The notes beneath the pieces were generated by a model. It made no database searches. It had not been told where the DNA came from and saw nothing but the letters and a program-made list of their open reading frames with translations. A DNA stretch of 57,123 nucleotides from Acidobacteriota bacterium. GTDB taxonomy: Bacteria; Acidobacteriota; Blastocatellia; Chloracidobacteriales; Chloracidobacteriaceae. Below are positions 29,956 to 32,690 of the stretch, piece after piece; the first letter of the stretch is position 1; each line of letters begins with the position of its first letter. The translations under genes were made by a program, and so were the position numbers. The stretch is from NCBI GenBank assembly GCA_016208495.1, contig JACQXX010000078.1, positions 1-57,123 of the forward strand, written 5' to 3'.

Positions 29956-30534
29956 GATTGCATCCTCAGGGGTGTCAATATCAAGACTTCCCCCAGCAAA
30001 TGGAATCAGAATAGTTTGATCAAGATTGGCCTGGATGATCTTTTTGGCACCTGTATCACCGCCAAGTGCCAGAAGGAGGGGAAAAAAAGAAGAGGTAAAC
30101 AAGGCTGGAATGCCCACAGTGTCGGCATACTGTGAGGCAATAATGTTTTTTCGAGTGCGAAAAAACGTGGTGATCAGGTCTGAAAGAAACTGTGTTGATA
30201 AAAACGGCTGGTCACAGGGAGCAATGACGACAGCGTCAACCGACCCAAGTTGTGAAAGTGCGGCAATCCCGGTCCGGATCGAAGCGCCCATGCCTTCTTC
30301 CCAGGTGGGATTCTCCACCACGTGGATGGCATAGGCATTCAACGTTGGTTTGATGGCTTCGGCCTGAGCCCCAAGCACAACCAGCACGGGGTGGGCGCCA
30401 GTACCGAGGGCGCATTCCACTGTATGCTGAAGCAAATTTTGGCTGCCAATCGGTAGCAATTGTTTGGGGTGTCCCAAACGTCGCGACGCGCCGGCAGCCA
30501 AAATCAAAATTCCAATCTGTTTGAAATCACTCAC
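29911..30534 (-). CDS. MobA/MocA-like nucleotidyltransferase
   Basis: 207 aa from the GTG at 30534, whose start overlaps the stop of the DUF2063 gene by 8 bp, so translation is probably coupled. The nucleotide-binding motif LAAGASRRLGHPKQLLPIG and the later VIAPCDQPFLS metal-binding motif define the molybdenum cofactor cytidylyltransferase (MocA)/CTP:Moco family. No molybdoenzyme or Moco genes are nearby. Its place at the end of the MNIO operon suggests either read-through or a so-far unassigned role in that pathway. The last residues, LRMKNEE, come from the repeat array. Confidence 0.82.
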   Translation of the reverse strand: MSDFKQIGILILAAGASRRLGHPKQLLPIGSQNLLQHTVECALGTGAHPVLVVLGAQAEAIKPTLNAYAIHVVENPTWEEGMGASIRTGIAALSQLGSVDAVVIAPCDQPFLSTQFLSDLITTFFRTRKNIIASQYADTVGIPALFTSSFFPLLLALGGDTGAKKIIQANLDQTILIPFAGGSLDIDTPEDAIRFLKNEDLRMKNEE

Positions 30535-31378
30535 CCTGAGTTGGCTCCAATTCGACGGATTGGAAAAATCCCTGATTCACCCAATCCCGAAACCACTGGA
30601 AAATCTGCTCTTTCACACCTCGGCTTGAAAAGCGACGCGTGGTGGTAAGAATTGCCTCACCGAGTGGCATGCCCGAAGTCAGAGCAGTGAGCATTTCAAA
30701 AGCTGGCCGGGTCAAATCAAACCGCCAGACACTGTATCCACGGCGGCATACAGCCACCCACGTGTCCTGACGTTTGATTTTGGGTCGGTGACTGTTGGAA
30801 CGCACCGCTTCCAGATAGGCATTCACCGGATAACGATGTGCCAGAGTTTGAAACCCATTGACTGGACGAAATCGGGCAAATTCCCAGGCATCGGCTGGAA
30901 TATCCTGGATCATTTCCGAGGTCAAAATTGACGAAAGCTCAGCGTCAAACACCTGGGTGACCGCCAGCTCCAGACGTGCCAGATCATAGACGAAGGCTCG
31001 ATTCGGCACCTGGTCATCGGTTTGGATATATTCGGGAAAGTTGTCACTCAGTCGGTTTAATGTGAAACTGCGGGAAGGAAATTGCTGGACATAGCGGGCG
31101 ACCAGATCAAAAAAATCATCTTCGCCCAGAAAATGCTCGACCGCAAAAAAATCAGCCGCCAGGGCATCATTCATCCGCAAGAGATACATTCCGCGATAAA
31201 TGTTGAGGCGTTCCTGTCCGGTCAGGGTTTTTGATGGAAGAATAATCGAAGTGGCTTTTTCTTCTTCAAGTCCTGCACTCTGGCTGGCGGCTTCCATCGC
31301 TTCACTGGTCGCACCTGGAAACACAATATAGCTTTGCATCCAGGTCTGGAGCTGGCTTAATGGAACATCAGTCGCCAT
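30527..31378 (-). CDS. DUF2063 protein, partner of MNIO enzyme (BufC-like)
   Basis: 283 aa from the ATG at 31378, which follows GGGAGGTGG and overlaps the MNIO gene end by 11 bp. The N-terminal part ([13 protein letters not shown]...[44 protein letters not shown]) matches the DUF2063 'putative DNA-binding' family. In known bufferin and related RiPP operons this family is the substrate-binding partner of the MNIO enzyme. The C-terminal half (about 170-275) has a winged-helix look. The DNA-binding label is historical; a peptide-recognition role fits better here. Confidence 0.85.
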
Positions 31379-32231
31379 ATCCACCTCCCACGGCCAGAAC
31401 TGGTTCCGGCAGGTACTGACGGGCTTTTAAGACCTCGGCGTGAACCACGTCAAATTCCGGGATGTCATCATCCCACTCAAGCAAGGTTGCCCGCCCGCCG
31501 GTTTTGGCGGTAGCCTGACGATAGAGGGCCCACACTTCGTCAATCACATGGTCGCTGTGGGTGTCGAGAATATGCGTGCCTTTGTTGGTATGTCCGGCCA
31601 GGTGATACTGGACGACCCGATCAGCCGGAATGGCGTCAATGTACACAGTTGGATCAAAATTATGGTTAAACGAACTGACGTACACATTGTTGACATCAAG
31701 CAGCAGCCCACAATTGGCATCTTCAACCAGCCGTGCCAAAAATTCCCATTCCGGCATTGATGAATCGGCAAATTCAACGTAGGACGATGGATTTTCAAGA
31801 ACAAGAGGACGTTCAAGCAAGTCGGAAACAATACGCGCCCGCTCAATCGTGTGTTTGAGCGCTTCCTCGGTGTATGGCATCGGTAGCAAGTCGTGGGTAT
31901 TTCGCCCATGAACGCCAGTCCAGCAAAGGTGGTCTGAAACCCAGGTACTGCCAATCCGATCCGCCAGGGCTTTGAGTTTTTTCAGATAGTCCATATTCAG
32001 CGGGTCAGTGCTGCCAATTGACATCGACACGCCGTGCATAATGATTGGATAGCGTTCAGCCACCTGTTCCAGAATGAACATCGGGCGACCGCCGGTTTCC
32101 ATAAAATTTTCAGAAATGATTTCAAACCAATCAACTGGGGGTTGATTTTCAAGAACGTGGGTAAAATGGACGGTGCGAAGGCCAACCCCGAATCCAAGAT
32201 CCGGGAAATTCCAACGATTAGGAGTGGTCAT
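31368..32231 (-). CDS. MNIO-family peptide-modifying oxidase (DUF692, BufB-like)
   Basis: 287 aa from the ATG at 32231 (GGTGGA before it); a GTG at 32294 would add 21 residues not typical of the family. TIM-barrel DUF692. The iron ligands can be seen: H66 ([10 protein letters not shown]), D100/H101 (SDHLCW), E146-N147 (LENPSS), D179 with N181/N182 (LLDVNN), H210 and H214 (YHLAGH), D223/H225 and E252 (LEWDDDIP). Known members (MbnB, TglH, BufB) oxidise cysteines of ribosomal peptides using mixed-valence iron. The Cys-rich peptide encoded directly upstream is the likely substrate. Confidence 0.92.
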
Positions 32232-32312
32232 AAAACTTCCACCAAGACGAAATGTGGCCGAGGTTTCAGCCTGAGAGACTGTCACCTCGACCACGGAAGA
32301 AAAAAGACTTAA

Positions 32313-32637
32313 CTATCGGCTCTTGCAGGATTCTTTGCTCTTGCAGGATTCTTTGCCCTTGCAGGATTCTTTGCTCTTGCAAGATGATTTTTCTACTTTG
32401 CAGCCGCCTTTGCCTTTGCAGGAATTTTTGCCGGCGCAGCCGTTGTCGCCGCTCTTGCAGCCGCCTTTGCCCTTGCATTCATTCTTGCCTTTGCATTCGT
32501 GAGCGCTCTTGCAGGAGGCTTTTTCTACTTTGCAGCCGCCTTTGCCCTTGCAGGAGTTTTTGCCAGCGCATCCATTGTCGCCGCTCTTGCAGCCGCCCTG
32601 CCCTTTGCATTCATTGTAGAAACTCTCTACGCTTCAT
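32313..32637 (-). CDS. Duplicated Cys-rich peptide, candidate MNIO substrate (apparent frameshift near the start)
   Basis: The frame ending at TAG 32313-32315 is open for 106 codons and holds 16 Cys spaced 6-7 residues apart, mostly as CK. A unit of about 38 residues (ECKGxGGCKSGDNGCAGKNS, then CKGKGGCKVEKxSCKS) occurs twice, followed by three KESCK[SG] repeats on an 18-bp DNA repeat. This frame has no ATG, GTG or TTG start; it opens after a TGA at 32634-32636. An ATG at 32637 with GGGAG 5 bases upstream lies in the other frame and reads MKRREFLQ-stop. A +1 shift at TTT-C would join MKRREF to YNECKG. A sequencing error, mutation or programmed shift are all possible. Unlike most bufferins, no signal peptide is seen. 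Confidence 0.75.
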
Positions 32638-32641
32638 AGTT

Positions 32642-32690
32642 ACTCCCTAAATATGTGTGGTTTAGAATTAAATTGCGGCTTTGGTGCCGC
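32642..32690 (-). promoter_or_regulatory. Leader of the MNIO operon
   Basis: Contains the Shine-Dalgarno GGGAG (32643-32647, minus strand) and a small GCGGC/GCCGC hairpin (32675-32679 with 32686-32690). A clear promoter was not found. Confidence 0.4.

Follow-up and report, generated by a model that had tools for sequence, protein, structure and literature searches.

The closest described relatives of the peptide studied here are the Buf2 bufferins. According to PMC12452194, their precursors measure 51 to 367 residues and contain 6 Cys in 90% of cases and 12 in the rest, so that repeat-built 12-Cys Buf2 peptides are already known. The same paper reports lipoprotein signals in about 16% of Buf2 precursors and describes both stand-alone precursors of the lipoprotein type and precursor genes unlinked to MNIO genes. 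It also mentions preliminary results for a Buf1 system, according to which the signal peptide would be part of BufB-BufC recognition (PMC12452194).

We analysed a 57,123-nt stretch of DNA (hereafter the window), which is the whole of contig C78 of an 8.38 Mb acidobacterial genome assembled in 177 contigs. The original prediction, made from the sequence of this stretch, proposed that it encodes an unusual leaderless, repeat-built MNIO substrate, possibly made by +1 frameshifting, and gave a recently broken gene as the alternative. Comparison with homologous loci favours the latter: the locus is most likely a recently broken bufA2, the gene for the precursor of a Buf2 bufferin, i.e., of a peptide predicted to be modified by an MNIO enzyme and to bind copper.

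Results

A Cys-rich frame without a start codon in a bufABC operon

The scan of frames and start codons recovered the start-less frame that had been reported ahead of the MNIO gene, with its 106 codons and 16 Cys (Table 1). The frame runs from stop to stop on the minus strand and contains no start codon of table 11, whether ATG, GTG, TTG, CTG, ATT, ATC or ATA. Leaderless or internal initiation within it might be suggested by its being long and open, but the complete lack of such codons nearly excludes this. The frame gives a match to the NCBIfam model Cu_RiPP_BufA2 (NF050166) that chance cannot account for (43.7 bits, E = 2.4e-11), while missing the curated cut-off of 60 bits, and its best-matching stretch corresponds to positions 31-75 of the 79 of the model. 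Like BufA2, it has the six-Cys unit (one complete and one truncated copy) and Lys/Gly-rich spacers, lies ahead of bufB and bufC, and comes with a ribosome-binding site and the first signal codons; unlike BufA2, it has no further signal sequence, its unit 1 is without the first Cys, and its frame is broken.

The six-Cys unit of Buf2 follows the pattern H.C...N.C...GGC...GC...N.C...GGC. The duplication of a unit of some 38 residues, as originally described, holds for the two copies but not for the length, since the period is slightly longer: the NECKG...GGC blocks of units 1 and 2 start 44 codons apart. The three KESCK repeats are present after the units. The duplicated six-Cys domain recalls the 12-Cys Buf2 bufferins described in PMC12452194; unlike these, the frame has five unit Cys in unit 1 and six in unit 2, five more in the linker and tail, and no signal.

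Two genes adjoin the Cys-rich frame. The predicted bufB product, whose start (ATG at 32231) was placed from homologues, is 72% identical to that of G001, a genome of the same family, over residues 1-287 of 287. The predicted bufC product is 53% identical to its G001 counterpart over residues 3-278 of 285, and scores 46 bits against NCBIfam HvfC (NF050145), below the cut-off of 142. Both genes are thus full-length. Since a BufA2-like frame is followed by matches to MNIO_BufB and DUF2063, in the order bufA-bufB-bufC, the locus is a bufABC operon, which bears out the link to MNIO/bufferin operons that had been drawn beforehand. No known RNA element was found at Rfam gathering thresholds between 31300 and 33400. 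Counts of promoter- and terminator-like patterns between 31900 and 33100 were uninformative (2 vs 1.0, sd 1.0, and 3 vs 1.7, sd 1.3, in shuffles, respectively). There is also a small hairpin, GCGGCACCAAAGCCGC then AATTTAATTC, at 32675-32690 on the minus strand, 37 bases upstream of the ATG described below; such sites occur at about the frequency expected in shuffled sequence.

Table 1 Features of the bufABC locus in the window and the unlinked precursor gene of the same genome
Feature	Position	Strand	Basis
bufC, DUF2063 partner protein, full-length	30527..31384	-	Pfam PF09836, 58.7 bits (cut-off 27.2)
bufB, MNIO family bufferin maturase, full-length	31368..32231	-	NCBIfam MNIO_BufB, 364.2 bits (cut-off 310)
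Strong hairpin between bufA and bufB	32254..32294	-	folding of 32232-32320
Cys-rich frame, 106 codons and stop, no start codon; probable leftover mature part of bufA2	32313..32633	-	frame scan, NCBIfam, start-codon check
Three KESCK tail repeats	32316..32387	-	sequence
Cys unit 2, complete six-Cys Buf2 unit, HECKGKNECKGKGGCKSGDNGCAGKNSCKGKGGC	32400..32501	-	profile and unit alignment
Cys unit 1, truncated, NECKGQGGCKSGDNGCAGKNSCKGKGGC, Cys 2-6 of the six-Cys Buf2 unit	32532..32615	-	unit alignment
Inferred deletion junction, where signal codons enter the interior of Cys unit 1 in the wrong frame	32611..32617	-	ATG-to-NEC distances
Putative bufA2 stub, ATG AAG CGT AGA GAG TTT CTA CAA TGA, MKRREFLQ*; signal-peptide start with twin arginine	32611..32637	-	sequence and homologues
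Shine-Dalgarno-like AGGGAG upstream of the stub ATG	32643..32648	-	sequence; AGGGGAATAACTATG at the equivalent place in G001
Intact stand-alone lipoprotein-type Buf2 precursor	G000:C47:40311-40850 (L117 3812-4351)	+	sequence comparison

Orthologues read straight from the start to the Cys repeats

We confirmed that a well-placed ATG (32637-32635), preceded by a Shine-Dalgarno-like sequence, lies in a frame other than that of the Cys repeats and meets a TGA (32613-32611) after eight codons, with UUU-C at codon 6 as described. The encoded MKRREFLQ resembles the N-termini of homologues (MNRREFLNN, MNRRDFAK, MNRRDFTK, MNRREFSMIL). A search for BufB in 58 genomes, including that of the window, gave matches in 25. 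The closest outside the window's own genome were those of G001, G010, G011 and G013 (68-73% identity), and that of G012, a fragment at a contig end (55%). At these five orthologous loci, all from the same family or order, the gene directly before bufB is one continuous frame composed of MNRR[DE]F, a hydrophobic signal sequence and Cys repeats. The precursor of G001 begins MNRREFLNNLMGAAVAGMVVGAGSSVFAAGKAEC and has two Cys units resembling those of the window. Because the orthologues pass from MNRR[DE]F to signal to Cys in a single frame, MKRREFLQ is best taken as the beginning of the same signal peptide. The comparison of 5' ends with relatives, which had been proposed along with the original prediction, reveals ordinary starts and single frames in all five, in substance the outcome that had been named beforehand as refuting an unusual substrate.

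A broader survey used a profile of the six-Cys unit, built from 18 units found by pattern, on 91 loci: the best 80 of 567 relatives and 11 named loci (the window, the paralogue of its own genome and nine from related genomes). The profile revealed a Buf2-like precursor at 64 of them, of which 55 belong to the set of 80 and 9 to the 11 named loci. A start codon and a hydrophobic stretch precede the Cys units in 55 of the 64. The other nine comprise seven with starts and no signal (L080, L096, L097, L104, L105, L106, L110), L046, which is truncated at the end of its contig, and the window, which is the sole locus, apart from L046, where the script found no usable start. The absence of a signal means here that no 13-residue stretch near the unit has a mean hydropathy of at least 1.3, a definition under which a more distant upstream N-terminus would escape. 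These counts are also to be read knowing that the profile misses intact precursors: a partial inspection by eye recovered L043, L047, L089, L091 and L094 among the 25 of 80 loci without match, and L005 and L006 are likewise intact genes overlooked by the profile and read by eye. Furthermore, L032 is the G010 locus repeated. We discarded the distance from the nearest start to the first unit, since it picks internal starts (minimum 13 codons, L004) and yields no start for L053.

At five of the loci without signal (L096, L104, L105, L106, L110; L080 and L097 by profile alone), the MNIO gene is preceded by a signal-less frame with a Cys domain, ELHVC.GLN.C, that resembles the Buf2 unit. These frames are perhaps a non-exported counterpart of Buf2.

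A segment is missing between the start and the Cys units

The distance from the ATG to the NEC motif is 22 nt in the window, 147 nt (49 codons) in G001 and 183 nt (61 codons) in a paralogue on contig C47 of the same genome. Around 125 nt are thus missing relative to G001 and 161 nt relative to the paralogue. As 22 is not a multiple of three, the Cys frame looks start-less. The junction falls within a six-Cys unit: past the eighth signal codon, the sequence enters the interior of the first unit in a different frame. This unit lacks its first Cys, and the second unit is complete. No N-terminal signal peptide is in frame with the Cys core, and the stub of eight codons sits in the other frame. Judging from the homologues, the lost stretch would have encoded the remaining part of the signal peptide, its cleavage region and one Cys or more. 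Neither a +1 shift nor the correction of one base in the reads would restore an exportable precursor, because the signal and the first Cys are gone and not a single base.

The size of the missing segment also rules out a single-base sequencing error as the whole story. The collapse of a tandem repeat is unlikely, since what meets at the junction is signal-peptide sequence and the interior of a unit, not two units. A larger artefact, in which the organism has an intact bufA2 and the stretch was lost through a chimeric read or a mis-join, has a small probability. We saw no second genome of the species, in a search that may omit records of the window's own genome, and the deletion consequently rests on one assembly, itself in 177 contigs. 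Yet, the flanks of the junction, as deduced from homologues, share only a handful of bases, not enough for an assembler to overlap them, the absent segment far exceeds one base, and, apart from the paralogue, which is 74% identical, the genome contains no other copy of the flanking DNA.

A functional +1 frameshift on the UUU-C of codon 6 would give MKRREFYNECKG..., a cytoplasmic or unusually exported bufferin with 16 Cys. Several traits speak for it: the codon after UUU-C is CUA, which makes up 10 of 3763 codons across ten reading frames of the window and is used least among the six for leucine, a Shine-Dalgarno-like AGAGAG lies just upstream, and the Cys frame is open and without decay. However, AGAGA and UUU belong to the ordinary codons of the RREF motif. 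G001 and the C47 paralogue have them in the equivalent position, and both read straight on. None of the 55 intact precursors needs a shift, and the five orthologues have one frame, so the two-frame arrangement is not conserved. The product would also lack the signal peptide, reportedly part of BufB-BufC recognition in the preliminary Buf1 work (PMC12452194), as well as the first Cys of unit 1. We thus regard such a frameshift as very improbable. A leaderless, repeat-built substrate made by +1 frameshifting, as originally proposed, is not supported, given five orthologues that continue from ATG through signal to Cys.

The Cys frame bears the mark of past selection

Units 1 and 2 of the window differ by 8 synonymous and 1 non-synonymous changes (pS 0.48, pN 0.01), which supports the earlier suggestion that the Cys frame is or was translated. 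The comparison with the units of G001 gives pS of 0.26-0.56 and pN of 0.08-0.12. The two 28-residue blocks (56 residues) contain no residue outside those seen in 26 blocks of other loci, including the own paralogue. By these comparisons, the frame was formerly under strong selection and has no visible decay. Given some 134 non-synonymous sites without departure, we estimate that a neutral age above about 0.02 substitutions per site is unlikely. Hence, either the break is recent or the Cys frame is still in use; an undecayed frame with this signature of selection fits a recent break and is also expected if the frame is still translated.

An intact paralogue lies elsewhere in the genome

The C47 paralogue encodes 179 residues (MNRREFSMILGAAVAGMLTGCSAE...) with 15 Cys in all and two full units, and is 74% identical in DNA to the window over 228 bases. 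It has the same repeat units as the window frame, but its signal sequence is intact, with a lipobox-like MLTGC, and there is no MNIO match on its contig. BufB matches in this genome are three, on C78, C43 and C165, which means that the paralogue is not beside an MNIO gene detectable by the BufB search. G010, G011, G012 and G013, all draft genomes, have similar genes, whose contigs differ from the ones with the MNIO matches; the gene in G013 is cut by a contig end. Near the stand-alone genes of L120 and L122 lie frames that look DoxX-like. G001 gave no second Buf2 gene at E 0.01, an absence of little weight because linked genes known in G010, G012 and G013 also escaped this search. The combination of full-length maturation genes with a broken linked precursor and an intact unlinked one suggests that a single BufB-BufC pair could act in trans on a precursor encoded elsewhere in the genome.

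Twin-arginine motifs and a hairpin in Buf2 operons

The motif xRRxF precedes the hydrophobic stretch in 38 of the 55 intact precursors and in 2 of 197 control frames, and the looser RRx[FILVMY] in 41 and 12, respectively. The contrast may be overstated, because the controls are mechanical reading frames with hydrophobic N-termini, taken from the loci of the best 80 of 567 relatives, and not annotated secreted proteins, and because the precursors are mutually related. The window's genome has TatC (216.4 bits, cut-off 25.1). PMC12452194 refers to Sec signals, and its main text contains neither 'twin-arginine' nor a word beginning with 'Tat'. The term 'twin-arginine' is also absent from the MNIO-mentioning papers among the ten listed of 58 matches. 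The motif suggests that the modified, possibly metal-loaded peptide could be exported by Tat.

The other shared trait is a hairpin of high stability in the bufA-bufB gap. In the window, the region folds at -31.8 kcal/mol (z -3.96), and none of 200 shuffles was as stable. Of 50 bufA-bufB gaps 50-300 nt long, 44 have a z of -2 or lower. Two controls gave lower counts, with 4 of 49 for stretches preceding bufA and 6 of 50 for stretches within bufB; an earlier count without controls gave 48 of 56 gaps. Among the five relatives folded, G001, G010, G012 and G013 have the hairpin and G011 does not. The hairpin sequences of the different loci look unrelated by eye. As a candidate role, the hairpin may be a partial terminator or an mRNA-stabilising element that keeps the precursor in excess and sets the precursor-to-enzyme ratio. 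The searched parts of PMC12452194 contain no mention of it.

Discussion

Our analysis favours the reading of the locus as a recently broken bufA2, the alternative already considered in the original prediction and now supported by the single frame of the orthologues and by the missing signal segment. A deletion would have taken the larger part of the signal peptide together with its cleavage region and the first Cys, if not more, and fused signal codon 8 to the interior of the first six-Cys unit in a different frame. Translation from the native ATG would then end after eight residues, leaving the Cys frame without a start of its own. We infer that this deletion occurred in the lineage of the window, that it is real and not a product of sequencing, and that this copy yields no useful peptide. 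Three points count against a broken gene: the Cys frame is undecayed, bufB and bufC are full-length, and UUU-C/CUA is a plausible +1 site.

These points leave a slim chance that the gene is damaged and still expressed, by a +1 shift at UUU-CUA, as a signal-less cytoplasmic 16-Cys bufferin modified by BufB/BufC. If this were true, an exported bufferin would have been turned into an internal copper sponge, with an output set by the rate of frameshifting.

The broken bufA2 is most likely ordinary in kind and not a new way of making peptides. It would represent the natural loss of a bufferin precursor in a genome with full-length maturation genes and an intact unlinked paralogue, which the enzymes encoded by bufB and bufC may still serve. 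Two further traits of Buf2 operons emerged from the comparison, the hairpin between bufA and bufB and the twin-arginine motif of the precursors, the latter of which would allow modification ahead of export.
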